This document shows, piece by piece, positions 4,700-24,531 of a stretch of DNA of 64,000 bases. This DNA is from Sinorhizobium meliloti (GTDB lineage Bacteria; Pseudomonadota; Alphaproteobacteria; Rhizobiales; Rhizobiaceae). How positions within the stretch are numbered: the first letter of the stretch is position 1; every line of letters starts with the position of its first letter. The stretch spans positions 404,230 through 468,229 of the forward strand of contig NZ_CP141214.1 in NCBI RefSeq assembly GCF_035610345.1. The letters are read 5' to 3'. The position numbers were made by a program, and so were the translations under genes. The notes under the pieces are model-generated. The model was not told where the DNA came from and did not search any database. It saw only the letters and a list, made by a program, of their open reading frames with translations.

Positions 4700-6649
4700 T
4701 CAGCGAGCTGGACTGAATCCCGCCCGCTCCAGCGCGTCCTGCATATCAGGCGACAGCAGGGCGGCAAGGAATGCCTGAACTGCCACCCGCTCCTTCCGGT
4801 CCGTAACTAGCGCGAAATCAAAGTGCTCTTGCGTCAGCGGTATGAAACCCAAGCCAGCCGCGCGCGCGACCGGCCCGATCGTGACGCCCCAGTCGGCGCG
4901 TTTCTGTACGACAGCGGCGGCGACTGCATTGTGTGAGCGAGGCTGGTTCCAGTAGCCATCAGGGCGCGTCTGGCCGAGCAATTGGTCGATCAGGATGCGC
5001 GTACCGGCACCCTGGTTTCGATTGACCATCATGCATTCTGGATCAGCCAGAGCAGCCTCCACCGCCTCCGGCGCATTGCGACCTTCGAAGCGCGCGTCAC
5101 CGCGGCGGAACACGATGCCTTGTATGCGCCGCCAGCCCGGCACGAGCTCGATACCCTCGCTAAGGAACGGCGTGTTGTAGACTTGTGTCTGAGGGTCGAA
5201 AAGATGGATCGGCGCAAGGTCGCACTCACAGCGTTTAGCGGCTGCAAGACCGCCCAGGCTTCCGACGGCCAACGATCGCACCGAAATCCCTTGGCGCGCG
5301 ATCTTGCCCACGACAAGATCAAGGCCTGTGCAGTGACTGCCGATCACAACGAGGTCGGGCACCCTGACCTGCGGCGTGAACAGCGTCACCGGCACTTGTG
5401 CGCCCGCTGGCAGATGGTCGGCGAAGGCGTCAATGCGGATAAAGCCATCAGCCTGGGCGAAGGCGGTAATCGCTCCCGAGCCCTTGCCGGTCGCATAGGC
5501 CATCAGTCCGTCCCGCCCTTGCACCAGCGAGACCATGACAAACTCGGTGCGCCCCAGTTCGGACGGAACGCGGAACGGAAGCTGCGCACTCGTCTGCGCA
5601 TCAACGCGCGGCGGCAGCCCCGCCATGCGCCGCAGGATGGGCACCACCATATCGTGGAAGGTGAACATGGCCGAGGTCGGGAACCCTGGCAAGATGATAA
5701 CCGGCTTGCCGCCGCATACCGCCAAACAGAGCGGCTTTCCAGGCTTAAGCGCAACACCATGAGCAATGATGCCCGGTTTTCCGAGGCGGCCAATAATACG
5801 GTAGCTGACATCTCCCGCACCCTTGGAAGTACCTCCAGACAAAATCAGAACGTCATGGGAGGCGAGCGCCTCAAGCATCGCGGTCTCGAGCCTGGCTTCG
5901 TCGTCTGGAAACGCGCCCAAAAAATGGGCCTCGCCCCCGTTTTCGGTGACCGCCGCACTAACGATCGGCCCATTGGCGTCGTAAATGCCGGCCGGCTGCA
6001 GCGGTTCGCCCGGTTGCACGAGCTCATCACCCGTGGACAGAACAGCAACGCGGAGTTTGCGGGCCACCGTTACCTGCGGGGTTCCGCAGGCTGCGAGTAT
6101 CCCGATCTCACGCGCGCCGATCACCGACCCAGCCCGCAACACGACCTCTCCTCGCGCCATGTCCGACCCGGCGGTGGAGACGAACTGCCCCGGCGAGACA
6201 GCACGCCGCACTTCGATGGCCCCACCCTCGGCTGGCTGAGTATATTCCACCATGACGATCGCGTCCGCACCGCGTGGCAAAGGCCCCCCCGTGGCGATGG
6301 CTGTGGCGGTCCCGGGCAATACCGCAAGTTGCGGGACGCTGCCGCAGGCAATCGTTTCCCTGTTCAGCATCAATCGAACAGGCCGTAGGTCAGAGGCGGC
6401 AACCAGATCTGCTGCCCGTACCGCAAACCCATCGACACTGGAACGGTCGAAAGGTGGAATGTCGACCTGCGCCGCGACGTCTTCTGCAAGAGCCAGCCCG
6501 AGCGCCTCGGCTAAACTCCTTTTTTCAGTCGGCACCGACCAGGGAAACAGCGCTGCTTCGAAACGGGCCAGGGCCTCCTCACGTGACAATATCGTCAGAA
6601 ATTGCTTCTGGTCGGTGTTTTGCGGGATCGAAGAAGGAGACTTCATCAT
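4700..6649 (-). CDS. MoeA-type molybdopterin protein fused to PBP-like domain
   Basis: This 649-residue protein has two parts. Residues about 15-425 are MoeA-like (VDGFAVRAADL near the start, LSTGDELVQPGEPLQ, LSGGTSKGAGDVSY, GKPVIILPGFPTS), the family that inserts molybdenum or tungsten into adenylated molybdopterin. Residues about 435-645 form a periplasmic-binding-protein-like domain (GSHCTGLDLVV, NRNQGAGTRILIDQLLG), which in other contexts binds small ligands such as oxyanions. It lacks a signal peptide, so it should act in the cytoplasm. It follows the second MoeA-like gene by 9 bases, in an operon with tupBCA. The same kind of sensor domain occurs in the HTH regulator at 10191. Metal selectivity (W or Mo) is inferred. 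Confidence 0.85.
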   Translation of the reverse strand: MMKSPSSIPQNTDQKQFLTILSREEALARFEAALFPWSVPTEKRSLAEALGLALAEDVAAQVDIPPFDRSSVDGFAVRAADLVAASDLRPVRLMLNRETIACGSVPQLAVLPGTATAIATGGPLPRGADAIVMVEYTQPAEGGAIEVRRAVSPGQFVSTAGSDMARGEVVLRAGSVIGAREIGILAACGTPQVTVARKLRVAVLSTGDELVQPGEPLQPAGIYDANGPIVSAAVTENGGEAHFLGAFPDDEARLETAMLEALASHDVLILSGGTSKGAGDVSYRIIGRLGKPGIIAHGVALKPGKPLCLAVCGGKPVIILPGFPTSAMFTFHDMVVPILRRMAGLPPRVDAQTSAQLPFRVPSELGRTEFVMVSLVQGRDGLMAYATGKGSGAITAFAQADGFIRIDAFADHLPAGAQVPVTLFTPQVRVPDLVVIGSHCTGLDLVVGKIARQGISVRSLAVGSLGGLAAAKRCECDLAPIHLFDPQTQVYNTPFLSEGIELVPGWRRIQGIVFRRGDARFEGRNAPEAVEAALADPECMMVNRNQGAGTRILIDQLLGQTRPDGYWNQPRSHNAVAAAVVQKRADWGVTIGPVARAAGLGFIPLTQEHFDFALVTDRKERVAVQAFLAALLSPDMQDALERAGFSPAR

Positions 6650-6658
6650 GATGGCTGC

Positions 6659-7789
6659 TCAGTTCAAATTGCGAAGAGGCATAGCTGTGACGGACGTGCC
6701 GACGTCATATCCCTCGCTATCACCCGGCACTGCCAGCCAGGCATCGGCAAGCCGCATGGCCTCCAGCGAAAAATCGCCAACGGCAAGCGGCGTCCACATG
6801 GCCTGCTCTCTGCCGAGCAGGACAATCTCACTGAGCCCGACCTTCGACGCAATCTTTCGCGAGAGCGGCAAGGTTGTACCAATCCGCTTCGAGCGGCCTG
6901 ATAAACGGTCCAGGATCGGCTGGACCAATGCAAGAAAGCCGGCAAAGACATGATCAGGCGCCCCGGCCAAAGCGACCAGCGGCGTACTGCCAAGCCGGCC
7001 GATCGCCGTAGTATCGCCAGGCCGCATGGCGATACGATGCGCAATCAACGCGTTGGAAAGCGTCAGGGCCTCGGCAGTCGCATCAAGGCGGCCAGCACCA
7101 GTGCCTCCGACCAGGAGAAGCAAATCGCAAACCTCGCCGGCAAGAGCGGCTGCGATCGAAGCTGCATCACGGTGCGCGGTCTCTATCGCGGCGATCGTCG
7201 CATTCGAGGTCATCACACATTCGGCAACGAGGCGCGTCGAGAACGTCTCATGGTTTACGGAAGCGACATCGATCACACGCACGCGCGGGCTGCGTACGGG
7301 AATCTGGCTCAACCCTGCTTTGCGAGCGATCAGCAGGTCCGCGGCGCCGACTATCCCGCCTTCGAGAACCGGGGGTCGATGTGCGGTCATGTCCTCCCCC
7401 ACCCGGCGCACGCCCTGACCGGGAGCAGCCTCGCCGACGGCAAAAACGATTGGGCTGCTGCAATCGATCAGATCGGCTTGCAACACACAGTCCGATCCAG
7501 TCGGCATGACGTCGCCCACTTCCACCCGGACCGGGGCCGTCGAAAGCGCCAGAGGTGAGTAGGCGGACGCTCCCACGAGGTCGAGTGAACAACACGCCCA
7601 GCCATCGATTGTCGCAATGTCTCGCAACGGCAGTGCCGGCAAGGCAGCCGGCATCGCCGCGGCGACACGACCAAGCGCCCGGTCAAGCGGCTCCGACCGG
7701 GGAGCGATAGGCATCAAACCACTGAGAAGCGCCGCAAGCGCCACTTCCAGGCTTATCAGGGCGCTCGTCGGAGGATGCACTGTCATCAT
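6659..7789 (-). CDS. Second MoeA-like molybdopterin-binding protein
   Basis: The protein has 376 residues from the ATG at 7789 (an adjacent ATG is at 7786, and a TTG 12 codons further upstream is possible). The MoeA order is recognisable (LDRALGRVAA, IDGWACCSLDLVGASA, VGDVMPTGSDCVLQ, LLLLVGGTGAGRLDA, LVALAGAPDHVFAGF) but divergent: the usual SxxDGYA appears as IDGWACC, and the GGxSxGxxD loop is altered to GGTGAGRLDA. It may be a scaffold or a specialised insertase. It sits between tupA (42-base gap) and the MoeA-PBP fusion (9-base gap), so it is co-transcribed with tungstate uptake. Cytoplasmic. Confidence 0.8.
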   Translation of the reverse strand: MMTVHPPTSALISLEVALAALLSGLMPIAPRSEPLDRALGRVAAAMPAALPALPLRDIATIDGWACCSLDLVGASAYSPLALSTAPVRVEVGDVMPTGSDCVLQADLIDCSSPIVFAVGEAAPGQGVRRVGEDMTAHRPPVLEGGIVGAADLLIARKAGLSQIPVRSPRVRVIDVASVNHETFSTRLVAECVMTSNATIAAIETAHRDAASIAAALAGEVCDLLLLVGGTGAGRLDATAEALTLSNALIAHRIAMRPGDTTAIGRLGSTPLVALAGAPDHVFAGFLALVQPILDRLSGRSKRIGTTLPLSRKIASKVGLSEIVLLGREQAMWTPLAVGDFSLEAMRLADAWLAVPGDSEGYDVGTSVTAMPLRNLN

Positions 7790-7831
7790 CGCCCGATAAT
7801 GGGACAGATGCGGGCACCTTGGCAACAGACC

Positions 7832-11183: not shown

Positions 11184-11390
11184 TCATCCCAGATCGATCT
11201 CGCCTTCCACGACATGATTCAGGCCGGCGGCCTCCGACGTGATGACGGCCTTGACGATCAGCTTCCCTTGTCCTTTCAGACCTTTTTGCTCCACTGCCTT
11301 CTCTATCGCCTGTTGCGAGGTCACCCCGACCTGCTTGAGGAACTTGCGCATGGAGACGTTGAAGGGGTCGGTTTCCATATTCGTGATCAT
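11184..11390 (-). CDS. DUF6494 family small protein
   Basis: A 68-residue protein with the pattern DPFNVSMRKFLKQVGVTSQQ, EKAVEQKGLKGQGKLIVKAV and a C-terminal beta hairpin (NHVVEGEIDL). This matches DUF6494-type proteins of proteobacteria, whose function is unknown. The ATG at 11390 has only a weak SD, and an in-frame ATG four codons later is possible. It is divergent from the WD40-cytochrome c gene, with 100 bases between them. Its position inside the formate dehydrogenase island suggests a role in maturation or electron transfer, but that is inference. Confidence 0.65.
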   Translation of the reverse strand: MITNMETDPFNVSMRKFLKQVGVTSQQAIEKAVEQKGLKGQGKLIVKAVITSEAAGLNHVVEGEIDLG

Positions 11391-11490
11391 ATGATTGCCT
11401 CGAACAGAGTGAACAGTAAGGTCGATCCGGCACTTTCCGTTCCTGCAACGGAGACCATCGCCAATCGAGCATGAATCCGTTTGAGGTGCA

Positions 11491-12786
11491 ATGAAGGCGA
11501 TGCTCGCTATACGCTGCCTGGTGGCAGCCGCTTCCTTCCTCTTCGGCGCGACTGCGCATGGGGCGGAACTGCGCGGCCATGGAGGCCCGGTGCGTTCAAT
11601 CGCCATAGCCCCTGACGGACAGACAGCGATCACCGGCAGTTTCGATACCAAGGCGATTATCTGGTCGCTTGAAACGGGCGAGGCGCAGCAGGTGCTGCTG
11701 TTTCACGAAAGTCAGGTCGATGCCGTCGCTGCTTTGCCGCGGGGGCGTTACGCCAGCGCCGGGGCCGACGGCCGTATCGCAATCTGGGAGGCCGGACGCA
11801 GCACGCCGGTATCCGTGTTGCATGGCCATGAGGGGCCGGTTGTCGCACTGGCAGTCGCGCCCGACGGCTCTACGCTCGCTTCTGCCTCCTGGGATACGAG
11901 CGTGCGTCTGTGGCCGCTTTCCGGCGCTGCGCCGCGCATCCTCAAAGGCCACCATGGCAATGTTAACGCGGTCACCTTTCTGTCCGACGGAACGCTTGCA
12001 AGTGCGGGCTATGACGCAGCCATCATACTATGGCCGCCGGGACATGACGCTGCGCCGATGCGAATATCCATGCCGGGGCCACTCAACGCCCTCGTGACGA
12101 TGCCGGGCGACCGCCTGCTTGCAGCAGGCGCAGACGGGACATTGCGCCAGCTCGACCGAAGCGGCGCGATTGTGGCCGAGGTCAAGGTGTCCTCCGGCCC
12201 CCTGATCGCACTAGCGGCTACGGCTGATGAGAAATACATCGCCGCCTCGGCCATCAGGGAGGGCATCGTGTTGCTCGACTCCCGCACCCTGAAGCCGGTT
12301 CACACCCTCGGCAGTGCCGGCGTTGCGCCGGTGTGGGCCCTTGCCTTTCCACGCAGTGCCCGGACGCTGCTGGCCGGCGGTGCGGACAACATAATAAGCG
12401 AATGGGATGTTGAAACCGGCAGGCGGCTTGGAACCTCAGCCGCGATCCAGGCCGATCTGATGAGCGAATATGCCGGCAATCCGGACGCCGAAGTCTTCCG
12501 TGCCTGCATCGCCTGCCATACGCTCGGCCCGGAGGACGGCAATCGCGCCGGACCGACGCTGCACGGCATCTTCGGCCGCAGGATCGCGTCGCTTGCCGGC
12601 TATCCCTACTCCCCCGCTTTCCGGCGGATGGATATCGTCTGGACGCCGGAAACGGTGTCGAAGCTCTTCGAACTAGGGCCAGGCATATATACGCCAGGGA
12701 CCAAGATGCCGGAGCAGACGATCAACGATCCCGAGGATCGTGCAGCGCTGATCCGCTTTTTGCAGGCTGAGACCCGCCGCGACTAA
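11491..12786 (+). CDS. Exported WD40 beta-propeller fused to cytochrome c
   Basis: The 431-residue protein has a signal peptide (MKAMLAIRCLVAAASFLFG, cleavage near AHG-AE). Repeats about 40 residues apart follow (LRGHGGPVRSIAIAPDGQ, LHGHEGPVVALAVAPDGS, LKGHHGNVNAVTFLSDG, each ending in a VRLW/IIW-like strand), about seven in all up to residue 315. A class I cytochrome c domain follows, with haem motif CIACH at 339-343 and a likely axial Met in TKMP (about 406). It should be periplasmic. An electron-carrier or docking role with the formate dehydrogenase or the iron-sulfur protein is inferred from context. Its 3' end overlaps the convergent gene by 65 bases. Confidence 0.82.
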   Translation: MKAMLAIRCLVAAASFLFGATAHGAELRGHGGPVRSIAIAPDGQTAITGSFDTKAIIWSLETGEAQQVLLFHESQVDAVAALPRGRYASAGADGRIAIWEAGRSTPVSVLHGHEGPVVALAVAPDGSTLASASWDTSVRLWPLSGAAPRILKGHHGNVNAVTFLSDGTLASAGYDAAIILWPPGHDAAPMRISMPGPLNALVTMPGDRLLAAGADGTLRQLDRSGAIVAEVKVSSGPLIALAATADEKYIAASAIREGIVLLDSRTLKPVHTLGSAGVAPVWALAFPRSARTLLAGGADNIISEWDVETGRRLGTSAAIQADLMSEYAGNPDAEVFRACIACHTLGPEDGNRAGPTLHGIFGRRIASLAGYPYSPAFRRMDIVWTPETVSKLFELGPGIYTPGTKMPEQTINDPEDRAALIRFLQAETRRD

Positions 12787-14827
12787 ACTCAACCGATTTG
12801 TCTGTCGTTGCGTCGCGCTCCCGCAAGTAATCTTCCGTCGTCCGTGGAGCGGGACGGCCCGACGCTTCGTAAGGATCGAACCCTTCATTCATGACGGATT
12901 CGACACGACAGTTATCGCACATCCGCACGACATCGAGGCGTCGGGCATTCTCGCCGGAAAACATCCAGTGCTTGCCCTCCAGCTTGTCAACGATGCGTTC
13001 GACGGTACTTTTCGTTCCGAATGGCGTGTCGCATCGAATGCAATGGAACGGTTCTTCCTGTTTGATCACCCGGCGGGGGCCATTCCAGGCCTGGAAATCC
13101 AGTTGCGGTACCAACGCGATTGCCTTTTCTGGACAAGTCGCGGCACAGAGCCCGCACTGCACGCAGGCGCTCTCGGCAAAATACAAAGCTGGCCGCTCTT
13201 CACTGTCGGAGAGCGCGCCCGTCGGACAGGCCGATACGCATGACAGGCACAGCGTACAGGCATCGACATTGACGTCGAGCCCGCCAAATGGCGCGGCCGC
13301 TGGCAATGCCGTGCGCTCTACCGGCGTCGGAGCGGCCTCATACAAGCCGATCACCGAGCTTTTCAGCAAGCTGCGCTTGCCTCCGACCGGCAGGAATGTC
13401 ACCGGCTTTCGCGCATCCGCTTGCGGCACCATCCGCCCGAGAACCGTTTGCAGATCATCGGGGTCGTCCGCTTCGATCACGCCGCAGAGATCGGCTCCAT
13501 AACCCAGCGATTGTCCAAGAAGATTGGCGATGGTGACGTTTCTGGCTAGGCCGGTCAGGTCATGTTTCCCCCTCGCCGAAGAAAGGGCCCTGATCGCCAC
13601 CGCTCCCCAGGCGGCCGGTGCAGTCCACGCCTCGACCCCCAGCTGCGTTATCTCATTCACACCGACCGGCAGCACATTCGCGGGCAGTCCCTGCCCGAAA
13701 CGCGCCAGCGCATCGATAAGCGGCTCTCCATGACCTTCATCGTGAAACAGCACAATCGGATCGCTGCCGCCTACCCTGTGATAGGTGAGCAGGAGCGTGC
13801 GCAGGCGTCGAAGCAGGGCCGCCGCATCCGGAAAAGCATAGGCGGCGGCACCGGTCGGACAGGCGGCAGCGCAACTGCCGCAGCCGGCGCAGACATCAGC
13901 GTCGATCGCGACATGGTCGCCAGCGGGTGCAATCGCACCCGTAGGACAAAGGTTGATGCAGCGCGTGCATCCGGTGATGCGCGAACGCGAATGGGCGCAA
14001 AGATCGGCGGAAAAATTGATGTAGCGAGGCTTTTCGAATTCCCCCACAAGGCCGGCTGCCTTGGCGATCGCGGCAGCAAGGCCCGCGCGGTCGGCCGGAT
14101 CCGCTCTCAGATAACCTGCCCGCAATTCATGGGCAGGAAACAGGGGAGCGCCGCCGGAAAGGTCAAGAACTATATCGGCATTCGATAGTGCGCCATCCCG
14201 CGGCGCGCCAAAACGCAGACGCTTGCGCGACGATGGCGATGGCATCGCGAAATCGTCGATCGTCAGTTCAAACGCGCCGAGATGACCGCGCGCGTTGCGG
14301 ATCGTGCCCTGCACAACGGGGAAATCCCAGACGCGATGGGGCGTGACATCGTCCGGCCGCGTCAAAAGAACCGTGACGTCCATCTCGTCGGCAAGCTGCC
14401 GTCCAGCCTCGATCGCCGCTTCGTTCCGGCCATAGACGAGCACCACGCCGTTGCTCGCGAGCGTAACGCTGGTCGGCGAAGTGACCGTTTCCGCTGCCAT
14501 CGCCACGAGTGCCGCGGCTTTCGGCCCGGCGGATGCCCCTTGTGCCGACCAGCCTGACGTCTCGCGGATGTTGACGAAAGCGAGTTCGCCCGCAAAGCCA
14601 CGTTCCTGCGCGACTTCACGGAAAAGCCGTTCCTGCTGTGTGCAGGCTATCGTGATGTCGTCGCCTCCATTCAATGCGTTGCGGACGCGGTCGAGTTCGG
14701 CGCCGCAGAGTTGATTTCCAGATTGGATTTGGTCGCTTGAGCATCCACGGGCGACACTCTGGCCAAAGTCCGGCATGCTGCGTTCACAGGAACAAACAAA
14801 GACGGTGCGTGGTCTGTCTGGGATCAT
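12722..14827 (-). CDS. Large 4Fe-4S ferredoxin-type protein (701 aa)
   Basis: This 701-residue cytoplasmic protein has an N-terminal Cys-containing segment (VFVCSCERSMPDF). Two regions then carry paired ferredoxin motifs: GCTRCINLCPTGAI and CAGCGSCAAACPTGAA (about residues 280-330), and CTLCLSCVSACPTGAL and CVQCGLCAATCPEKAI (about 535-590). A late CxxC pair follows (HCIRCDTPFG, MCDNCR). This suggests four 4Fe-4S clusters plus a possible metal site. It is known as a companion of proteobacterial formate dehydrogenase loci. It may move electrons in the cytoplasm, perhaps during enzyme maturation; the function is not established. It is divergent from the rightward FDH operon (107-base gap) and overlaps the cytochrome gene tail-to-tail. 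Confidence 0.82.
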   Translation of the reverse strand: MIPDRPRTVFVCSCERSMPDFGQSVARGCSSDQIQSGNQLCGAELDRVRNALNGGDDITIACTQQERLFREVAQERGFAGELAFVNIRETSGWSAQGASAGPKAAALVAMAAETVTSPTSVTLASNGVVLVYGRNEAAIEAGRQLADEMDVTVLLTRPDDVTPHRVWDFPVVQGTIRNARGHLGAFELTIDDFAMPSPSSRKRLRFGAPRDGALSNADIVLDLSGGAPLFPAHELRAGYLRADPADRAGLAAAIAKAAGLVGEFEKPRYINFSADLCAHSRSRITGCTRCINLCPTGAIAPAGDHVAIDADVCAGCGSCAAACPTGAAAYAFPDAAALLRRLRTLLLTYHRVGGSDPIVLFHDEGHGEPLIDALARFGQGLPANVLPVGVNEITQLGVEAWTAPAAWGAVAIRALSSARGKHDLTGLARNVTIANLLGQSLGYGADLCGVIEADDPDDLQTVLGRMVPQADARKPVTFLPVGGKRSLLKSSVIGLYEAAPTPVERTALPAAAPFGGLDVNVDACTLCLSCVSACPTGALSDSEERPALYFAESACVQCGLCAATCPEKAIALVPQLDFQAWNGPRRVIKQEEPFHCIRCDTPFGTKSTVERIVDKLEGKHWMFSGENARRLDVVRMCDNCRVESVMNEGFDPYEASGRPAPRTTEDYLRERDATTDKSVEFSRGGSQPAKSGSALHDPRDR

Positions 14828-14934
14828 GCTCTACTCTCCCCGCATCACGGCACCGCCCAACAACGGTGGCGCCTCCACTTCGGATGCATTATAAAGACAT
14901 TAGGCTCGCCGTCATCAGAAATGGGACCGGCATC
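14828..14934. promoter_or_regulatory. Divergent promoter region of the FDH operon
   Basis: These 107 bases separate the leftward 701-aa iron-sulfur gene from the rightward ligase-DUF-FDH operon. The promoter for the whole right arm should lie here or just upstream. An AT-rich patch (GCATTATAAAGACATTAG) is present. I see no -24/-12 sigma-54 element and no FNR-type box. Confidence 0.35.
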
Positions 14935-15681
14935 ATGTTTCAGCACGCTTCGGTGATGGACCACGCCATCGAACTGCCCCCGCCCTACAACCTCGTCATG
15001 ATGCGCGAGACCGGCGACGCTTTTGCACACGCTCGCGCCATTGCCGCCGAATGGGGAGCAGGGACGCTGGTCTGGGCACGACGTGACGATCTGGCCGAGT
15101 TCGCCGTCGTGCTGGAACCGGAAATGCCGCTCGTGCATGCACGCCTGGCCATCTATGCTGGGATGAACGCACTGGCCGATGCGCTTGGCACACATGCGCC
15201 ACCGTCACGACCCATCACCTTCGACTGGCCAGACGCGATCCGTGTCGACGGGGTCTTGGTCGGCGGCGGACAACTGAGCTGGCCGGCGGGAACGGGCGAG
15301 ACCGAGACGCCGGCCTGGCTTATCTTCTCGACAATGATCCGCACCACGATCGTGCGCGTCCACGAACCGGGTCTGCGGCCGCTGTTCGGCGCACTGGACG
15401 AAGTGGGTTTCGAAGCCGTCAATATCGGCGAGATCATCGCCAGCTTTTCACGTCACCTGATGGTCGGCTTGGACGAATGGCACGACACCGGCTTTGCGCG
15501 GTTGGCTAGGCGATGGCTGGACCGCGTGTCGCCCGGAGGCCACAATGGACGGATCGCCGACAACGGGGATCTGCTGGTTCAGGCCGAACCCGGCCAGACT
15601 TCCCTTACGAGGCGGAGCCTGGCGCAGGCGCTTGCATCCTGTTCCTGGCTCGATCCCGCAACGGGAATGCCATGGCTTTGA
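14935..15681 (+). CDS. Biotin/lipoate A/B ligase-like protein (DUF4444 type)
   Basis: The 248-residue protein resembles the biotin/lipoate ligase superfamily: an early ETGDAFAHARAIAAEWGAGT LVWARR-like segment (the usual RG-ligase loop), DAIRVDGVLVGGGQLSWPAG in place of the nucleotide/lipoate-binding core, and a C-terminal DUF4444-like part (IASFSRHLMVGLDEWHDTGF). It lacks the clear GRGRxGR loop of BirA, so the substrate is unknown. It opens the rightward operon that continues through the FDH structural genes. The stop overlaps the next start. The ATG at 14935 is chosen on family-length grounds; 14884 and 14956 are alternatives. Confidence 0.65.
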   Translation: MFQHASVMDHAIELPPPYNLVMMRETGDAFAHARAIAAEWGAGTLVWARRDDLAEFAVVLEPEMPLVHARLAIYAGMNALADALGTHAPPSRPITFDWPDAIRVDGVLVGGGQLSWPAGTGETETPAWLIFSTMIRTTIVRVHEPGLRPLFGALDEVGFEAVNIGEIIASFSRHLMVGLDEWHDTGFARLARRWLDRVSPGGHNGRIADNGDLLVQAEPGQTSLTRRSLAQALASCSWLDPATGMPWL

Positions 15682-16214
15682 ACCTGCCGCGCACCATCCG
15701 CCTCGATCCGTCCGATACGTTCGTCTATTCGCGCGCCGCCGAGCCCGGCGAATGGGCGGTACCGGGTACATTCCTTTTCTTCGGCATCGACCCCGAAACC
15801 CTCGCCGGCAAGAAACGGCAGGCTTTTCGAGCCGGCTTCCTGGGCATCGAAAGTTTTGGCTGGTCCACCCTCGTTGTCGTGACGGAGGTGAAGGCGGAAG
15901 AACGCGCTGCGGCCGTTGAGCGCCTGGCCGAACAGTTGGTCGCGCATTGCGGCGCCCCCGATCTTGAAACAGCGCGGCCGGCCGCCGAAGAAGAAATCGC
16001 GTTTGCGCAATCGCTTTGCGATCACCCGCCAAACACCATACTTGCCCTCCACCGCGCCAGCGAGCAGACTGGGATCCGGGAGGCGTTCCGTACCCTTCAC
16101 CCGAAGGTGGGTCGACTGGATATGGCAACGGCCTTCAACGCTATAGAGATTGACGAGGAAAACGACCGGATGGAAGAGCTCGATATCCGGACGTTGGCGG
16201 GAAGGCACACGTGA
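15672..16214 (+). CDS. DUF6505 family protein
   Basis: A 180-residue soluble protein beginning MALNLPRTIRLDPSDTFVY, with GEWAVPGTFLFFGID and FRAGFLGIESFGWSTLV, a pattern seen in DUF6505 proteins of rhizobial formate dehydrogenase loci. It overlaps the previous gene by 10 bases and the next by 4, indicating tight translational coupling. There are no cysteine clusters, membrane segments or signal peptide. The function is unknown; context argues for an FDH-specific maturation or assembly role. Confidence 0.65.
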   Translation: MALNLPRTIRLDPSDTFVYSRAAEPGEWAVPGTFLFFGIDPETLAGKKRQAFRAGFLGIESFGWSTLVVVTEVKAEERAAAVERLAEQLVAHCGAPDLETARPAAEEEIAFAQSLCDHPPNTILALHRASEQTGIREAFRTLHPKVGRLDMATAFNAIEIDEENDRMEELDIRTLAGRHT

Positions 16215-17227
16215 AGGATTTCTGGGTATCTTCGGGTCACCATCTCCTCGATCGGGACGAGGCAGACCGGCTTATAGTGACCGACGCGTTCCTCAAGGCT
16301 TATCTCGCTCGCCCCGAACTGCTTCCGCCGGAAGGGGCGTGTGAGGTAGAATTGCGTCTGCACCATGAGCTTCTGATGCATCATCCGCGCCGTCCGGTCA
16401 CTCTGGACGAGATCGCCGTCATGGGCGACCCGGATGCCCGCGAAAACTGGGCGTTCATGATCTCCTTCCGCGACCGGCTTCTTGCCACGCCCTCGCTTGA
16501 GGCCGCTTATCTGCAACTGGCGCTCGGTTCGGCAGCCGACACGCCTCCGCTGTTCATGAACCAGCTCGCGCAGGTCGTGCTGCGCAATGCGCTCGACGGC
16601 GAGACCGAGCCCGCGGTGTTGCGCGCCGCCGAGCTGTTCTATCGCCCACAGCGGGTAAGCTTCCATGAAGGAGCGCTGCTGCTTGCCGACGCGGAAACAA
16701 TAGAAGTTCACGAGCAGAACCGCCACACTTCACCGCTCTTGAGCATGCTCGGCGGGCCAGCCGTCACCGAACTCGAAATCCTGGACGAGACGAACGCCGA
16801 TAGCTATTTTGACAGGAGCGATGCCTTTGACATGGTGCTCCGTCTGGGTGGCGCCCACAGCCCCGCGCGTCGCGGCCTTGCCGACGCAATGGAAGCCTGG
16901 ATCCGCCATCTGGTCGCCGTCACGGTAACGATCGAACCGGTCGAGCGGATCGAAGACGACAACTGGGCATGGTTCGTCGGCCTTGACGCCGAGGCGACAC
17001 GCATCGGTAATGCACTGTGGCGAGGCGAGGACCTCGACCCCGAAACGGCGGAGCGTATCGTTGCGTTGTTCCGCCTCCGCTTTTCCGACATTGGCGAGGT
17101 CAGGCCCCAAGTGGGTGCTCAACCGATCTGGCTGATCATGGCGATGACGCCCGATCGAATGATCCGCATGAAGCCGCAAAATCTTATTGCCGGTCTGCCG
17201 TTGTGCGCTACGGCGCAAGCGACCTAG
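16211..17227 (+). CDS. DUF6352 family protein
   Basis: A 338-residue soluble protein that starts at the GTG at 16211, overlapping the previous stop (GTGA). It begins MKDFWVSSGHHLLDRDEADR and contains NWAFMISFRDRLLATPSLEA and QLALGSAADTPPLFMNQLAQ. This resembles DUF6352, known only as a neighbour of formate dehydrogenase genes. A run with TSPLLSMLGG and SYFDRSDAFDMVLRLG follows. I see no metal-binding or nucleotide-binding motif. It may be a chaperone or scaffold for FDH, by association only. Confidence 0.65.
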   Translation: MKDFWVSSGHHLLDRDEADRLIVTDAFLKAYLARPELLPPEGACEVELRLHHELLMHHPRRPVTLDEIAVMGDPDARENWAFMISFRDRLLATPSLEAAYLQLALGSAADTPPLFMNQLAQVVLRNALDGETEPAVLRAAELFYRPQRVSFHEGALLLADAETIEVHEQNRHTSPLLSMLGGPAVTELEILDETNADSYFDRSDAFDMVLRLGGAHSPARRGLADAMEAWIRHLVAVTVTIEPVERIEDDNWAWFVGLDAEATRIGNALWRGEDLDPETAERIVALFRLRFSDIGEVRPQVGAQPIWLIMAMTPDRMIRMKPQNLIAGLPLCATAQAT

Positions 17228-17237
17228 GAGCGCAGTC

Positions 17238-17756
17238 ATGGTGCGGGAAACGGAAAAAGTCGGTGTGATCGTGGAGAGGCGAGACCTGGATAGCCCATGG
17301 GCGGATCATTCCTGGGTGCCGGTCGCCGCGCTCGCGGGCGCACCGGTCGCGACACCATGGACGGTGCTCGAACAGACGACGAGGCTTACGCGCTATTATG
17401 CAGGGACATCCGACATTGAATTTTTCGGAACGGATACGGCGATGTACCGGGAGAACCTGCGTTCACAGCGGCCTAGCCTTTGGATCGCCCTCCGACTCAC
17501 GGATTTAGCTCCGGGAATCGTAGTCCATCTGGTTACAGCGGATCCGGCTGAGGCCGAATCTCTGACGGAAACCAACACAGACATCATCGAAGCCGTTTCG
17601 ATGCCGATTGAAATACAGGAGCGCCTTGCCGCATTCGTGGAAGCTCATCATGTCGAGCGTGCGTTCGTCAAACGCAAGCGTGATCGGACAGATCCCGAAG
17701 CCATGGCAAGTCGGATTCATGGTGGCTCACAAAGCAGGACGACAAGGGATGAGTGA
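17238..17756 (+). CDS. DUF3305 domain protein
   Basis: The 172-residue product from the ATG at 17238 (MVRETEKVGVIVERRDLDSP, then WADHSWVPVAALAGAP) matches DUF3305, which is found next to DUF3306 in proteobacterial formate dehydrogenase loci. An upstream in-frame start is possible, but this ATG sits 10 bases after the previous stop. The body is mixed alpha/beta with ERAFVKRKRDRTDPEAM near the C-terminus. It overlaps the DUF3306 gene by 8 bases. The biochemical role is unknown. Confidence 0.7.
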   Translation: MVRETEKVGVIVERRDLDSPWADHSWVPVAALAGAPVATPWTVLEQTTRLTRYYAGTSDIEFFGTDTAMYRENLRSQRPSLWIALRLTDLAPGIVVHLVTADPAEAESLTETNTDIIEAVSMPIEIQERLAAFVEAHHVERAFVKRKRDRTDPEAMASRIHGGSQSRTTRDE

Positions 17757-18477
17757 CGGCAGCGACAATCATCTTGCCCGCTGGTCGCGCCGCAAGCTGG
17801 CCTCACGGCGAGAGCATAAGCCGGCGGCCCCTGAATTGGACCAGGCATCGGGCGAGGTCGCCGAGAATAACGATCCGGTGGCCTCCTGTCCTGAGCGCAA
17901 CCTGCCAGAGGCGAAAGCAGCGGAGCTTGAGGGTGTTGGCGTGGTCGAGCCCCTCCCGCACCTCGAAGACCTGACTGCCGAAAGTGACGTTGCGGCTTTC
18001 TTGAAGAAAGGCGTTCCGTTGGCGCTGAAGCATGCGGCGTTACGCAAGGCATGGTCACTGGACCCCGGAATCCGCGACTTCGTCGGCCCTTCGGAATATG
18101 CCTGGGACTTCAACAAACCAGGCTCGATGGGGGGGTTTGGTCCGCTCGACGCAAAGGAAACCGTCGTGGGCTTCCTGTCGAAAGCGGCGCGTGCCGTTGA
18201 CACCCTTACGAAACCGGAGGCCGTTCCGCCACATGAACAACGCGGCGATGCCGTGCCGGATGCGGCCCTTCCTGTCGAGGATCTAGAGAATTTAGCGACG
18301 GAAAAGCCAGCCACCGACGAGCCGCCGGCGATAGAGCCACCAGCTCTCGAGACGTCAACCAATGTGAGCGCATCGGTTGAATTCAAATCTCACACGCATT
18401 CGCCGGACAAGATGAGTCCTTCTCAGCTTCCCGAGGCTTACTCCGGGCCCCGACATGGCGGAGCGATGCCACGCTGA
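17749..18477 (+). CDS. DUF3306 domain protein
   Basis: The 242-residue product begins MSDGSDNHLARWSRRKLASR, the typical DUF3306 start. A conserved centre follows: SDVAAFLKKGVPLALKHAAL, RKAWSLDPGIRDF, then EYAWDFNKPGSMGGFGPL. The last 90 residues are Pro/Glu/Ala-rich and probably disordered. DUF3306 always accompanies DUF3305 near FDH. It may bind the apo-enzyme or its Tat leader, but this is inferred. It overlaps the DUF3305 gene. Confidence 0.7.
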   Translation: MSDGSDNHLARWSRRKLASRREHKPAAPELDQASGEVAENNDPVASCPERNLPEAKAAELEGVGVVEPLPHLEDLTAESDVAAFLKKGVPLALKHAALRKAWSLDPGIRDFVGPSEYAWDFNKPGSMGGFGPLDAKETVVGFLSKAARAVDTLTKPEAVPPHEQRGDAVPDAALPVEDLENLATEKPATDEPPAIEPPALETSTNVSASVEFKSHTHSPDKMSPSQLPEAYSGPRHGGAMPR

Positions 18478-18584
18478 TCTGGTATTTGCCGGGATCTTAT
18501 GTGGTAGCCTGTCAAGGTCAGGCTGTTGCATTCGTTCGGTATCGGGTTACTATGAGAAACCCATTCAGGCAGCACGGTCAAGGT

Positions 18585-19259
18585 ATGATGAACCCCGACT
18601 TGCTTTCAGATCAGGCCTGGGAACAGCCAGATGGAGCGGATGCTTCAATCTTCGGTGCAGGAACAGATGTTCTCGATGACATCGACCAGGCCCGGGCGGA
18701 CGAATACGCACTCCTCGCCTCACTATTGATCACCCCGCCGGACAGCGAATCGCTCGCCAGGCTTTCATACTTGCAGGACAACAGCGATGCACCGCTCGGC
18801 CGTGCTCACATTGCACTTGCTCAAGCGGCAGCATCGTATTCGCACGATGCGATCTGTCGCGAATATTCCGAGCTGTTCATTGGCGTGGGACGCGGCGAAC
18901 TCCTTCCCTACGCATCCTATTATCTCACCGGCTTCCTCAACGAACGCCCGCTTGCGCGCCTGCGGGCAGACATGGCCCGTTTCGGTATCGAGCGCGCCGA
19001 GGGCAATTGCGAACCCGAGGATCATCTAGCCAGCATATGCGAGATGATGAGCGGCTTTGCCTGCAATCACTTTGCCGTCTCCCACGACGAGGAGCAGGAT
19101 TTCTTCAAACGCCACGTCGAGCCGTGGGCCGGGCGTTTCTTCAGCGACCTGGAACACGCTAAGGCCGCCAAATTCTACCGGTCGGTCGGCACGGTCGGTC
19201 GGCTTTTCATCGAGATCGACAGCGAAGCCTTCGCCATGGCGGCACGGCAAAACGCATAG
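18585..19259 (+). CDS. TorD/DmsD-like Tat proofreading chaperone
   Basis: A 224-residue all-helical protein with family landmarks: RADEYALLASLLITPPDSES, SHDAICREYSELFIGVGRGE, LPYASYYLTGFLNERPLARL and PEDHLASICEMMSGF. TorD-type proteins bind Tat signal peptides and guide molybdenum-cofactor loading of the alpha subunit before export. It lies 45 bases upstream of the small Tat-leader protein and the FDH alpha subunit, which have the twin-arginine leaders it would bind. Starts at 18585 and 18588 are adjacent and 18552 is possible; AAGG precedes 18585. Confidence 0.8.
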   Translation: MMNPDLLSDQAWEQPDGADASIFGAGTDVLDDIDQARADEYALLASLLITPPDSESLARLSYLQDNSDAPLGRAHIALAQAAASYSHDAICREYSELFIGVGRGELLPYASYYLTGFLNERPLARLRADMARFGIERAEGNCEPEDHLASICEMMSGFACNHFAVSHDEEQDFFKRHVEPWAGRFFSDLEHAKAAKFYRSVGTVGRLFIEIDSEAFAMAARQNA

Positions 19260-19304: not shown

Positions 19305-19514
19305 ATGCAAGACGAGCGACAAACGGCATTGGGCCGGCGCTACTTCCTTAAGGCATTCGGCGGCGCAACGACGACCGTCGTCGCGGCCGCGGCGCTCTGT
19401 CCCACCGATGCTGAGGCCTACGACCCGGGCGAAGAGGAGATGCGGGGCCGCTACCGCGAAACGGACCACGTCAAGGCCTACTATCGCGTCAATCGCTATC
19501 CTACGCAGAAGTGA
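19305..19514 (+). CDS. Small twin-arginine-leader protein upstream of FDH
   Basis: A 69-residue protein with a Tat-type leader (LGRRYFLKAFGGATTTVVAA, RR at 11-12) and only about 30 residues after the likely cleavage site (AEA-YD). The mature part is charged and ends HVKAYYRVNRYP. Such tiny Tat proteins are recurrent just before proteobacterial formate dehydrogenase alpha genes; some may be subunits or export escorts. GGAGGA lies upstream. It ends 7 bases before the alpha gene. Confidence 0.75.
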   Translation: MQDERQTALGRRYFLKAFGGATTTVVAAAALCPTDAEAYDPGEEEMRGRYRETDHVKAYYRVNRYPTQK

Positions 19515-19521
19515 GGGTGCC

Positions 19522-22443
19522 ATGCTTACGAAGCGCAAGGATCGGCAGGCAAGCCGCACGCATCTGCAAACCCTGACCGGCGGCATGGCAGCGGCCCCCT
19601 TGGACCGGCGGACATTCCTCCGGCGCTCCGGCCTTGTCGCCGGCGGCCTGGCGGCACTCGGTTCGTTCCAACTCGGCACAGTCAAAAAGGCCGCCGCGAT
19701 CAGCCCCCCCCAACCGGGCGTGCCGATTGAACTCAAAAAGAGCATCTGTACCCACTGTTCTGTCGGGTGCACCGTAACTGCGGAGGTCCAGAACGGCGTG
19801 TGGACGGGGCAGGAACCCTCCTGGGACAGCCCCTTCAATCGCGGCTCGCATTGCGCCAAAGGCGCCAGCGTACGCGAACTCGTGCACAGCGACCGTCGTC
19901 TGAAGTACCCGATGAAGCTCGTCGACGGCCAATGGGAGCGTACCACCTGGGAGGATGCGATCAACGGCATCGGCGACAAGCTTCTCGAGATCCGCGAGAA
20001 GTCGGGGCCGGAATCCACCTACTGGATGGGGTCGGCGAAATTCTCCAACGAAGGCACCTATCTCTTCCGCAAGCTCGCCGCTCTGTGGGGAACCAACAAT
20101 CAGGATCACCAGGCCCGTATCTGTCATTCGACGACGGTTGCCGGCGTAGCCAACACCTGGGGCTACGGCGCGATGACCAACTCGTACAACGACATCAGAA
20201 ATTCCAAGACGATGCTCGTTCTTGGCGGCAATCCGGCCGAGGCGCATCCGGTCGCGATGCAACATCTGCTTGAGGGAAAGGAACTCAACAACGCCAATTT
20301 CATCGTCATGGACCCGCGCTTCACGCGCACGGCTGCCCACGCCACCGAATACGTCCGCTTCAGGTCCGGCACCGACATTGCGCTGATCTGGGGCATGCTT
20401 TGGCATATTTTCGAGAATGGCTGGGAGGACAAGGAATTTATCGCGCAACGCGTCTACGGAATGGATGAGGTTCGAAAGGAGGTCGCCAAGTACACCCCGG
20501 ACGAGGTGGAAACGATCACCGGCGTGCCCGGCGAGCAGTTGAAGCGCATCGCCGAGACGTTCGCGACCCAGAAGCCATCGACGATTATCTGGTGCATGGG
20601 CCAGACGCACCACACTGTTGGAACCGCCAATACGCGGGCGAGCTGCATCCTGTGTCTCGCTACCGGCAACATCGGCAAGCCGGGCACCGGCGCCAATATC
20701 TTCCGCGGCCACGACAACGTTCAAGGCGCGACGGACATCGGGCTCGACGTGGTCACCCTGCCCTTCTACTACGGTCTGACGGAAGGGGCCTGGAAGCATT
20801 GGGGGCGGGTGTGGGAGATCCCCTATGACGACCTGTTGGGCCAGTTCTCTTCCAAGGAACTGATGGAAACACCCGGCATTCCGCTGACCCGATGGTTCGA
20901 TTCGGTTTCACTGCCAAAGGAAGACGTCGAGCAACCCGACATCATGCGGTCGATGTTCGTACAGGGCCACGCCAGCAACAGCATCACGCGCATCCCCGAG
21001 TCGATGAAGGGGCTTGCCGGACTTGAGCTGCTTGTCGTGGCCGATCCTCACCCCACGACCTGGGCCTCGCTCGCGGTGCAGGCGGGGCGCAAGGACAACA
21101 CCTATCTCCTGCCGGTTTGCACGCAGTTCGAAACCTCGGGATCGCGGGTCGCCTCCAACCGAGCGCTCCAGTGGGGCGAGCAGATCGTCCCCCCAAGCTT
21201 CGAGCAGAAGGACGATTATCAGGTCCTGTACCTGCTTTCACAGAAGCTTGGCCTCGCCGAATGGATGTTCAAGAACATCGCCGTCGAAGGTGATCGGCCG
21301 GTACCCGAGGACGTGCTGCGTGAAATGAACCGCGGCGGCTGGTCGACCGGCTATTGTGGCCAGTCGCCCGAGCGGCTCAAGGCGCATATGCGCAACCAGC
21401 ACAAATTCGATCTGCTCACCCTGCGCGCGCCGAAGGACGACCCGGAGGTCGGCGGCGATTATTACGGTCTGCCCTGGCCATGCTGGGGAAAACCGGAACT
21501 CCGTCACCCGGGAACTGCAAACCTCTACAGCACCGGCCTGCATGTCATGGACGGGGGCAGCCCATTCCGCGCCCGCTTTGGCGTGGAACGCAACGGCGAA
21601 ACGCTTCTTGCCGAGGGTTCTTACACGGAAGGTTCCGAACTCACCGACGGTTATCCGGAGTTCACCATGGCCGTGCTCCAGAAACTCGGCTGGGATCGGG
21701 ATCTCACCCCGGAAGAACTAGGCATCATCCAGACGATCGGCGATGATATGGGCGACATCGGCAAGGTGTCGTGGTCGACCGACCTGTCTGGCGGCATCCA
21801 ACGCGTGGCGCTCAGCCATGGCTGCCACCCCTACGGGAATGGCAAGGCCAGGGCGCTTGCCTGGAATTTGCCGGATCCGGTGCCGATCCACCGCGAGCCG
21901 ATCTATACGCCCAGGGTGGATCTTGTAGCCAAGTATCCGACCTATCCAGACGCCAAGCAGTTCCGCCTGCCCAATATCGGCTTCAGTGTGCAGAAGGCGG
22001 CTGTGGACAATGGCACCGCGAAATCGTTCCCGATCATTCTGACGACCGGACGCCTCGTCGAATACGAGGGTGGCGGTGAGGAAACCCGCTCGAACCGGTG
22101 GCTTGCCGAGTTGCAGCAGGACATGTTTGTCGAGATCAACGTCGACGATGCAGCCGAGCGCGGCATCAGTGACGGAGGTTGGGTCTGGGTCAACGGAGCG
22201 GAGAACGACGTGAAGGCAAAGGTAAAGGCTCTGGTCACCGAGCGTGTCGGCAAGGGTGTCGCATTCATGCCCTTCCACTTCGGCGGCTGGTTCCGGGGCG
22301 AGGACTTGCGAGCCAATTATCCCGAAGGGACCGACCCTTACGTTCTCGGCGAAAGCGCCAACAGTATCACCACCTACGGCTACGATCCCGTAACGGGTAT
22401 GCAGGAACCGAAGGTTACGCTTTGCCAGATCGTTGCGGTGTAG
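19522..22443 (+). CDS. Formate dehydrogenase alpha subunit, Cys-type, Tat-exported
   Basis: The 973-residue molybdopterin oxidoreductase oxidises formate to CO2 in the periplasm. The Tat leader has RR at 29-30 (DRRTFLRRSG). One 4Fe-4S cluster is ligated by C76, C79, C83 and C111. The Mo/W ligand is C201 followed by H202 (QARICHSTTVAG), where FdnG-type enzymes carry selenocysteine. The GNPAEAHPV and ATGNIGKPGTGANIF stretches bind the two guanine dinucleotides, and the C-terminal domain has TTGRLVEYEGGGEETRSN. Length fits FDH-N/FDH-O. The ATG at 19522 is preceded by GAGGG; the upstream frame is non-homologous. Tungsten versus molybdenum cannot be told from sequence, but tup genes accompany it. 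Confidence 0.93.
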   Translation: MLTKRKDRQASRTHLQTLTGGMAAAPLDRRTFLRRSGLVAGGLAALGSFQLGTVKKAAAISPPQPGVPIELKKSICTHCSVGCTVTAEVQNGVWTGQEPSWDSPFNRGSHCAKGASVRELVHSDRRLKYPMKLVDGQWERTTWEDAINGIGDKLLEIREKSGPESTYWMGSAKFSNEGTYLFRKLAALWGTNNQDHQARICHSTTVAGVANTWGYGAMTNSYNDIRNSKTMLVLGGNPAEAHPVAMQHLLEGKELNNANFIVMDPRFTRTAAHATEYVRFRSGTDIALIWGMLWHIFENGWEDKEFIAQRVYGMDEVRKEVAKYTPDEVETITGVPGEQLKRIAETFATQKPSTIIWCMGQTHHTVGTANTRASCILCLATGNIGKPGTGANIFRGHDNVQGATDIGLDVVTLPFYYGLTEGAWKHWGRVWEIPYDDLLGQFSSKELMETPGIPLTRWFDSVSLPKEDVEQPDIMRSMFVQGHASNSITRIPESMKGLAGLELLVVADPHPTTWASLAVQAGRKDNTYLLPVCTQFETSGSRVASNRALQWGEQIVPPSFEQKDDYQVLYLLSQKLGLAEWMFKNIAVEGDRPVPEDVLREMNRGGWSTGYCGQSPERLKAHMRNQHKFDLLTLRAPKDDPEVGGDYYGLPWPCWGKPELRHPGTANLYSTGLHVMDGGSPFRARFGVERNGETLLAEGSYTEGSELTDGYPEFTMAVLQKLGWDRDLTPEELGIIQTIGDDMGDIGKVSWSTDLSGGIQRVALSHGCHPYGNGKARALAWNLPDPVPIHREPIYTPRVDLVAKYPTYPDAKQFRLPNIGFSVQKAAVDNGTAKSFPIILTTGRLVEYEGGGEETRSNRWLAELQQDMFVEINVDDAAERGISDGGWVWVNGAENDVKAKVKALVTERVGKGVAFMPFHFGGWFRGEDLRANYPEGTDPYVLGESANSITTYGYDPVTGMQEPKVTLCQIVAV

Positions 22444-22456
22444 CGGAGGAACGAAG

Positions 22457-23053
22457 ATGGCACGGATGAAATTCCTTTGTGACGCCGAACGTTGTATCGA
22501 GTGCAATGCCTGCGTTACCGCCTGCAAGAACGAGCACGACGTTCCGTGGGGTATCAATCGGCGGCGTGTCGTCACCATCAATGACGGCAAGCCGGGCGAA
22601 CGCTCCGTCTCGATGGCCTGCATGCACTGTACGGACGCACCCTGCGCGGCAGTTTGTCCCGTTGACTGTTTTTACACCACTGCGGATGCCGTGGTGCTGC
22701 ATTCCAAGGACCTGTGCATCGGCTGCGGCTACTGTTTCTACGCCTGTCCGTTCGGCGCGCCGCAATATCCACGCGTCGGCAATTTCGGCTCACGCGGCAA
22801 GATGGACAAATGCACGTTTTGTGCGGCAGGACCGGAGGCCGACTCGACGGAGGTCGAGTATGCGAAATATGGAGCCAACCGGCTGGCCGAAGGCAAGCTG
22901 CCACTATGTGCGGAGATGTGCTCGACGAAATCGCTGCTGGCTGGCGACGGAGTGATCATTGCCGCGATCTACAAGGAGCGTGTGACGCAGAGAGGCTATG
23001 GCTCGGGCGCATGGGGCTGGCATACCGCCTATCGGGAGACAGTGGACGCCTAG
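22457..23053 (+). CDS. Formate dehydrogenase beta (iron-sulfur) subunit
   Basis: A 198-residue four-cluster ferredoxin protein with Cys groups CIECNACVTAC, CMHCTDAPCAAVC, CIGCGYCFYAC and CTFCA plus CAEMC. This is the standard pattern of FdnH/FdoH-like subunits that carry electrons from the alpha subunit to the membrane cytochrome. There is no signal peptide; export is expected piggyback with alpha. It lacks the C-terminal membrane helix of E. coli FdnH, so anchoring must rest on gamma alone. SD GGAGG upstream. Confidence 0.9.
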   Translation: MARMKFLCDAERCIECNACVTACKNEHDVPWGINRRRVVTINDGKPGERSVSMACMHCTDAPCAAVCPVDCFYTTADAVVLHSKDLCIGCGYCFYACPFGAPQYPRVGNFGSRGKMDKCTFCAAGPEADSTEVEYAKYGANRLAEGKLPLCAEMCSTKSLLAGDGVIIAAIYKERVTQRGYGSGAWGWHTAYRETVDA

Positions 23054-23275: not shown

Positions 23276-24301
23276 ATGCGGATCTGGAGCCTTTATCGAC
23301 TGGTCTCGGCGGCGGTTGCGGCATTCATACTGGCTTTCGTCCTATGGATGGCGCCCGCCGGGGCGCAGGAGCGCGCACCGGTCAACAACCCCGGTGCGCA
23401 AGGGGTGAGCGAGCAGCAGCTTCTTGATGAGCTCGGCAAGATCCAGGGTCGGGTCACGATACCCGACCGCAAGGCCACAACGCTGCAACAACCTCAAGGT
23501 CGGGACTATCAAACCTTCGAGCGGACTGCTCTACCCTGGGTTGGTGCGCTCATCATTATCGGCACGCTGCTCTCCATCGCGCTGTTTTATCTCATCCGGG
23601 GCCGTATTCGGACACAGGCAGGCGAATCAGGTCAAAAAATTCTCCGGTTCAACGCGCTGGAACGCCTGCTCCATTGGACAACCGCAACGGCCTTCATCGT
23701 CCTCGCGATCACCGGTTTGAACTTGATCTTCGGAAAGCGCCTGTTGATGCCGCTGATCGGGCCGGAGGCGTTCTCGACCTGGTCGATCTGGGCCAAGTAC
23801 GCGCATCATTTCGTATCCTGGGCGTTCATGCTCGGCGTCGTATTGATGTTGTTGACGTGGATCCGACACAATCTCCCGGACCGCTACGACGCAAAATGGC
23901 TTAAGTCCGCCGGCGGATTCTTCGACCGGTCGAACCAAACGCATATACCGGCGGGACGTTTCAACACCGGGCAGAAACTCATCTTCTGGTCTGTCGTGGT
24001 GGGGGGGACTGCGTTGTCGGTCTCAGGCGTGTTCATGCTGTTTCCGTTCTCCTTCACTGACGTCAACGGCATGCAGATGGCCCAATATGTCCATGCCATC
24101 GTGGGCCTCATCATGATCGCTGTGATCATTGGGCATATCTATATCGGCACGCTCGGTATGGAAGGTGCCTGGCAGGCAATGGGCTCTGGTTCGGTGGACC
24201 TGAACTGGGCCAAGGAACATCACAGCGCCTGGGTGGAAGAGCAGCAAGGCAAGACCGGTGCCCGGACACCGCCGCATACTGCCGCTGAGCCGGCGGAATA
24301 G
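23276..24301 (+). CDS. Formate dehydrogenase gamma subunit (cytochrome b)
   Basis: The 341-residue protein starts with a signal peptide (about 30 residues, ending PAGAQ) and a periplasmic segment to residue 80. A first membrane span (about 87-108) is followed by a four-helix cytochrome b core: ERLLHWTTATAFIVLAITG, KYAHHFVSWAFMLGVVLML, FWSVVVGGTALSVSGVFML and QYVHAIVGLIMIAVIIGHIY, with histidines suited to two haems b. This matches FdoI-type subunits with the long N-terminal extension typical of alphaproteobacteria. It passes electrons to quinone. SD GGAGG precedes the ATG. Confidence 0.9.
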   Translation: MRIWSLYRLVSAAVAAFILAFVLWMAPAGAQERAPVNNPGAQGVSEQQLLDELGKIQGRVTIPDRKATTLQQPQGRDYQTFERTALPWVGALIIIGTLLSIALFYLIRGRIRTQAGESGQKILRFNALERLLHWTTATAFIVLAITGLNLIFGKRLLMPLIGPEAFSTWSIWAKYAHHFVSWAFMLGVVLMLLTWIRHNLPDRYDAKWLKSAGGFFDRSNQTHIPAGRFNTGQKLIFWSVVVGGTALSVSGVFMLFPFSFTDVNGMQMAQYVHAIVGLIMIAVIIGHIYIGTLGMEGAWQAMGSGSVDLNWAKEHHSAWVEEQQGKTGARTPPHTAAEPAE

Positions 24302-24531
24302 ACCAGCCATATTCGCACCCGAACGGCGATCTGCGTATCGCGCGTCGTGGCAGAGTTGCGCCACCTGTGCCGCGAAATACTCTGGCAGAACCTAATGCAA
24401 AGCAGTTCTGGATTGCTGAAAGGCGAGGCATCCGAGGACGAAAGGGCCAAATTTTGAGACCGCTCGGATGTTCGATCAGAGGGTGATCAGAGGGTTTGAA
24501 TGTCACCTGTGCAAAAGACGCTCGGAGCCTC
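24302..24531. other. Non-coding stretch after FDH gamma
   Basis: These 230 bases lie between convergent genes. I see no gene with homology and no strong terminator; a GATCAGAGGGT repeat (about 24475-24495) is the only notable short repetition. Confidence 0.35.

Follow-up and report, generated by a model that had tools for sequence, protein, structure and literature searches.

Among the closest described systems to the one reported here is FdhE of Escherichia coli, which is also dedicated to periplasmic formate dehydrogenases (FDH), namely FDH-N and FDH-O, has CxxC metal sites and binds the alpha subunits of these enzymes; in the available part of a 2023 review (PMC10609526), fdhE is described as systematically associated with periplasmic-FDH operons. 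The same part states that NapF, a cytoplasmic four-cluster protein, is reportedly needed to build the NapA cluster, and excerpts of another paper (PMC6004506) describe HydN and YsaA as ferredoxin-like proteins that raise dye-linked FDH-H activity. In addition, according to the accessible text of PMC4464133 (2015), DUF3305 and DUF3306 lie upstream of 60% of the dmsD-fdhGHI operons surveyed there, and a figure legend lists fer4 and 'fdh tat'. Here, we analysed a stretch of 64,000 nucleotides from Sinorhizobium meliloti (contig NZ_CP141214.1, positions 404,230 to 468,229; referred to as the window), in which genes for DUF3305, DUF3306, an iron-sulfur (Fe-S) protein of 701 amino acids (aa) and several other proteins adjoin those of FDH3, a Cys-type, three-subunit FDH exported by twin-arginine translocation (Tat). 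We consider it probable that this gene set is a dedicated cytoplasmic maturation set of FDH3, the counterpart of FdhE for the selenocysteine (Sec)-type enzymes FDH-N/O.

A survey of 200 Pseudomonadota genomes, the window's own among them, showed that FDH alpha (counted at E <= 1e-100, three candidates scored per genome), DUF3305, DUF3306 and the Fe-S protein (E <= 1e-20, five candidates scored per genome) were present in an identical 22 genomes, spanning 15 genera and 10 families. The chance of two such sets coinciding is 1/C(200,22), or about 9e-30 per pair, a figure that ignores phylogeny and so overstates the case; the association of the core genes with FDH3 is beyond chance. DUF6505, strong matches to the ligase-like protein and DUF6352 were found in 15, 14 and 9 of the 200 genomes, respectively, each of them one of the 22 FDH3 genomes. 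For the ligase-like family, PF16917, some match occurred in 120 of the 200 genomes; weak ones were set aside, the 14 that were counted scored above 160 bits, and the next score below them was 95.9 bits, from a protein carrying ligase motifs. Besides the window's own, the sample has 21 FDH3 clusters, and each of these held TorD; a single-sequence model matched the Tat-leader peptide in 13 of them and a second round of searching in every one, the positions of the matches not being checked. A single uniform module, as proposed in the initial annotation, is not supported; there is instead an invariant core of DUF3305, DUF3306 and the Fe-S protein, accompanied in each of the other 21 clusters by TorD and the leader peptide, and a shell of DUF6505, the ligase-like protein and DUF6352 that many FDH3 genomes go without. 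The following features of the window are relevant:

11184..11375, minus strand: DUF6494 (PF20104), a neighbour not tied to FDH3
11491..12786, plus strand: WD40 protein with a cytochrome c-like C-terminus (PF00400) and a hydrophobic N-terminus, an optional neighbour
12722..14827, minus strand: 701-aa Fe-S protein (Fer4 by Pfam) with no hydrophobic segment, core
14935..15681, plus strand: biotin/lipoate-ligase-like protein without ligase motifs (PF16917 BPL_LplA_LipB_2, 169.8 bits, cut-off 27), shell
15672..16214, plus strand: DUF6505 (PF20115, 209.4 bits), shell
16211..17227, plus strand: DUF6352 (PF19879, 195.4 bits), shell
17238..17756, plus strand: DUF3305 (PF11749), core
17749..18477, plus strand: DUF3306 (PF11748), core
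18501..19259, plus strand: TorD-family chaperone (PF02613), GTG start as in an annotated relative
19305..19514, plus strand: FdhX-type 69-aa Tat-leader peptide gene (TIGR02811, 51.1 bits, cut-off 48.45)
19522..22443, plus strand: FDH3 alpha, 973 aa, Cys-type, Tat motif RRTFLRR (PF00384 and others)
22457..23053, plus strand: FDH3 beta (NF038355 FDH3_beta, 329.5 bits, cut-off 240), start as in an annotated relative
23276..24301, plus strand: FDH gamma, a cytochrome b (TIGR01583, 171.3 bits, cut-off 115.85)

The first eight open reading frames (ORFs), which the initial annotation had proposed as an assembly and electron-transfer module for FDH, were all present at the positions it gave, and their Pfam families mostly agreed; only the label DUF4444 for the ligase-like protein had to be replaced, as no DUF4444 model matched and PF16917 did. 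The rightward genes overlap or nearly overlap, as proposed, with gaps of -10, -4, +10 and -8 bases and then +23 bases to TorD. The run does reach TorD and FDH alpha, although the 69-aa Tat-leader gene between those two had not been named. From homologues and from the annotation of a plasmid of Sinorhizobium sp. C101, 99.0% identical, FDH alpha starts at about 19522 rather than 19297.

We scanned named genomes with the Fe-S protein as the query, which gave at least 590 relatives; the best 80 of these loci were taken, selected by the Fe-S protein and by title mostly alphaproteobacterial (Mesorhizobium, Bradyrhizobium, Methylobacterium, Bosea and others), and counts of large loci refer to the 60 that span at least 20 kb, leaving out the 20 shorter ones. 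FDH alpha, FDH beta, TorD, DUF3305 and DUF3306 were all present in 60 of the 60 large loci, followed by FDH gamma (59), DUF6352 (58), the Tat leader (57), the ligase-like protein (56) and DUF6505 (53). The proposal that the set is dedicated to an exported FDH of the Cys type is supported; none of DUF3305, DUF3306, DUF6505, DUF6352 and the Fe-S protein occurs mostly without FDH. One FDH3 genome (G016) has retained its Fe-S protein gene about 33 kb away from FDH alpha, DUF6505 about 380 kb away and DUF6352 about 280 kb away, suggesting function rather than hitch-hiking. DUF6352 genes at loci L105 (genome G019) and L102 (G016) are likewise far from FDH3, yet in FDH3 genomes. At L157, L171, L173, L180 (Bradyrhizobium) and L170, the genes next to FDH follow a second architecture, TorD-DUF3306-DUF3305-(DUF6352)-Fe-S protein; neither the Tat leader nor DUF6505 nor the ligase-like protein was detected at these five loci. 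The ligase-like protein and DUF6505 seem to go together as shell genes.

Two further genes had been included in the module but proved to be looser neighbours. The WD40-cytochrome gene was present in 41 of the 60 large loci and is optional rather than fixed; its product scored 44.7 bits with a cytochrome c-550 model, below the cut-off of 240. DUF6494 was present in 4 of the 60 and in nine of the 200 genomes, two of which (G107 and G187) lack FDH3; its membership is not supported. The window's genome carries a second DUF6494 gene (5718-5906 of locus L106, about 62 kb beyond the right end of the window), where its neighbours include a NuoG-like gene and a gene for an ABC transporter, so that DUF6494 has some other role.

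Several lines of evidence assign the enzyme to the FDH3 type. The beta subunit scored above the cut-off of the FDH3 model NF038355, whereas FDH alpha of the window fell below those of the general FDH alpha model TIGR01591 (454.4 bits, cut-off 666.25) and of the FDH-N/FDH-O model TIGR01553 (322.9 bits, cut-off 814.2). The active-site residue is Cys in the window, as it is in 90 of the 90 ORFs that matched the motif, loci with no match to the pattern being outside this count. Both FDH alpha and the small leader peptide FdhX bear Tat motifs, so that FDH3 should end up outside the cytoplasm.

The distribution of FdhE is complementary. No member of the FdhE family (PF04216) was found in the 22 FDH3 genomes, the E. 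coli control being positive, and none of the 24 genomes of the 200 that carry FdhE has FDH3. When these 46 genomes were searched for FDH-N alpha, 22 scored above the TIGR01553 cut-off, all of them FdhE genomes and none of them one of the 22 FDH3 genomes; the remaining two FdhE genomes, G079 and G178, were without FDH-N. Each of the 25 full-length FDH-N alpha copies has a single in-frame TGA, in keeping with selenocysteine, and fdhE and FDH-N alpha lie at most 5.5 kb apart, measured between lower coordinates, in 20 of the 22 genomes, and on different contigs in the other two. Genomes of both kinds occur within six families. The sample thus contains two alternative packages, one combining FdhE with Sec-type FDH-N and the other combining the present set with Cys-type FDH3. 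The non-overlap of FDH3 and FdhE by itself (P ~0.05) is only suggestive; that each package goes with an enzyme of its own carries more weight. This pattern departs from the statements found in the portions of PMC10609526 and PMC4464133 available to us, and the sample reveals a class of Tat-exported FDH without fdhE, against the systematic association given in that part of the review. The likeness to FdhE extends to gene position, since fdhE, too, lies near its own FDH alpha, but the FDH3 set is made up of several proteins and includes a TorD-family chaperone as well as ferredoxin domains.

For the Fe-S protein, the analysis predicts a cytoplasmic mosaic of the HdrA-MvhD-HycF kind that has no HdrA flavin motif. 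Its model (predicted local distance difference test score, pLDDT, 86.2) matched HdrA and HycF, with predicted segments that are HdrA-like (residues 4-347), MvhD-like (about 355-470, assigned by elimination) and HycF-like (514-647). The N-terminal and Rossmann parts of the HdrA fold are present in the model, and the similarity to HdrA extends outside the ferredoxin motifs (E 3.8e-4). The MvhD-like segment gave a Foldseek probability of 1.00 but an E of 0.022; the FlpD family, PF02662, was detected in 2 of 22 such segments (best E 0.0065), and MvhD was absent among the matches of a profile search of solved structures. Each relative differs from the mosaic: only 335 of the 644 residues of HdrA of the methanogen heterodisulfide reductase align with it, and against HycF (subunit 6 of the E. 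coli formate hydrogenlyase) it scored 45.9 bits, below the NF009053 cut-off of 204, its HycF-like part being fused to other domains. Like NapF, as described in the accessible part of PMC10609526, it is a cytoplasmic Fe-S protein with four clusters that goes with a molybdoenzyme exported by Tat, but it scored 47.4 bits with TIGR00402 (cut-off 102.2) and is a protein of 701 aa with HdrA-, MvhD- and HycF-like parts.

This composition gives rise to the main rival explanation, in which the Fe-S protein would not mature the enzyme but take part in its electron transfer, as a soluble cytoplasmic relay between another carrier and the share of FDH3 that faces the cytoplasm and there oxidizes formate or reduces CO2, after the models of HdrA-MvhD in methanogen FDH-Hdr complexes and of HycF in formate hydrogenlyase. 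The three segments resemble subunits of electron-relay complexes, namely HdrA, HycF and, with a weaker match, MvhD, and the four [4Fe-4S] motifs retain all 16 Cys in 17 of the 22 members and 15 of the 16 in the other five. However, the alignment shows that the flavin adenine dinucleotide (FAD) motif GxGxxG is absent at the HdrA position (stretch 122-158) from 22 of 22 members, and the MvhD-like segment has no conserved Cys, so that the known chemistry has been lost; moreover, there are Tat motifs on both FDH alpha and FdhX, and the gamma subunit is a cytochrome b. A hydrophobic segment was found in none of the window's core proteins, nor in any of its DUF proteins, and among relatives the hydrophobicity threshold was passed by 5 of 80 Fe-S proteins and 3 of 75 DUF6352 proteins. 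Because the core proteins of the window have no such segment while FDH alpha has a Tat motif, assembly is favoured over electron transfer, which we regard as unlikely: FDH3 should leave the cytoplasm while the core accessory proteins remain behind, which implies that they act before export.

For DUF3305, the predicted model was of very high confidence (pLDDT 93.0), and no solved relative of the fold was found in the searches made here. NCBIfam NF011058 joins MobA and DUF3305, with the window DUF3305 matching 220-369 and the window MobA 8-209, a hint at cofactor handling. In the text of PMC4464133 available to us, DUF3305 and DUF3306 are termed putative membrane proteins, with no function, whereas the window's copies have no hydrophobic segment. 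The ligase-like PF16917 proteins are unlikely, judged from their motifs, to be active BirA-type ligases: the catalytic Lys motif was found in none of 74 loci, and the GRGRxGR loop was missing in 70 of the 74, the other four having a GRGR-like match to a loose whole-ORF pattern. Both the Lys motif and the GRGR loop were seen in the G016 ligase at locus L104.

From the association with FDH3, which is observed directly, and from the predicted location of the proteins, we infer a maturation pathway that may proceed as follows. FdhD and MobA would supply sulfurated bis-molybdopterin guanine dinucleotide; DUF3305 and DUF3306 may hold or pass on a cofactor-loading intermediate, loading from MobA and FdhD; the Fe-S protein may dock on the cytoplasmic alpha-beta pre-enzyme via surfaces borrowed from electron-relay subunits and, once docked, feed electrons or Fe-S clusters into it, as reported of NapF for NapA; TorD would guard the signal peptide; and export would rely on the Tat leaders of FdhX and alpha. 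In a subset of lineages, helpers may be present in the form of DUF6352, DUF6505 and the ligase-like protein. A bolder version, which we offer tentatively, is that an electron-bifurcation scaffold with HdrA-MvhD-HycF parts, having lost the flavin motif and the MvhD cysteines, was turned into a one-chain redox maturase for an exported FDH, with DUF3305 as a new cofactor-handling factor, forming a second, FdhE-independent route that replaces Sec-FDH/FdhE genome by genome.

It is quite improbable that the extra genes are regulatory or metal-homeostasis neighbours riding with FDH3 as a mobile block and contributing nothing directly to the enzyme. Genes for a tungstate-type ABC transporter, MoeA, MobA and FdhD are nearby, the block is located on large plasmids in relatives, and DUF6494 has just such a loose association; the core genes, however, never occurred without FDH alpha in the 200 genomes, and G016 keeps the Fe-S protein gene though it lies apart. 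Least credible of all is that the set acts on metal choice, making the FDH3 cofactor tungsten-specific like MoeA1-MobB in Methylorubrum extorquens: tungstate-type transporter genes do lie beside the set (TupB model below its cut-off) and the accessible part of PMC13197769 describes a tungsten-specific maturation branch in an aerobic relative, but the core genes also occur in clusters with no Tup-type gene found in the stretch taken (e.g. L080, L082 and L092), and the work described there found MoeA1, MobB and FdhD, and studied FDH1.

The gene set had been put forward as the best candidate for an undescribed system. This holds in part: the link of DUF3305 and DUF3306 to fdh was in print in 2015, in PMC4464133, the sole printed mention found in our literature search. 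The genes in that text are the same, but here they are exclusive to FDH3 in the sample, and the Fe-S protein is an equal member of the core. As far as the literature searched shows, the exclusive association of the four-gene core with FDH3 appears to be new, as do the pattern of replacement relative to FdhE/FDH-N and the interpretations of the Fe-S protein as an HdrA-MvhD-HycF mosaic and of the PF16917 member as a dead ligase. A role is suggested for the four families DUF3305, DUF3306, DUF6505 and DUF6352 and for two unnamed proteins, the Fe-S and the ligase-like one, and the core genes form a short, testable list of what FDH3 may need, useful for making Cys-type FDHs for CO2 reduction.

In the window, the block is flanked by the tungstate-type transporter genes, MobA, MoeA and FdhD. 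Between FDH gamma and MoeA, two ORFs on the minus strand, 24841-25530 and 24126-24698, gave no Pfam or NCBIfam match; the latter overlaps the end of the FDH gamma gene, and the former has relatives in 3 of the 80 related loci. The TupB model scored 164.7 bits on the transporter gene beside the set, below its cut-off of 320. Two further MoeA-type genes on the minus strand, 4700-6649, which carries a PBP-like tail, and 6659-7825, adjoin the tungstate-type transporter genes and recall the moeA1-mobB-tupBCA cluster of M. extorquens described in the available part of PMC13197769.

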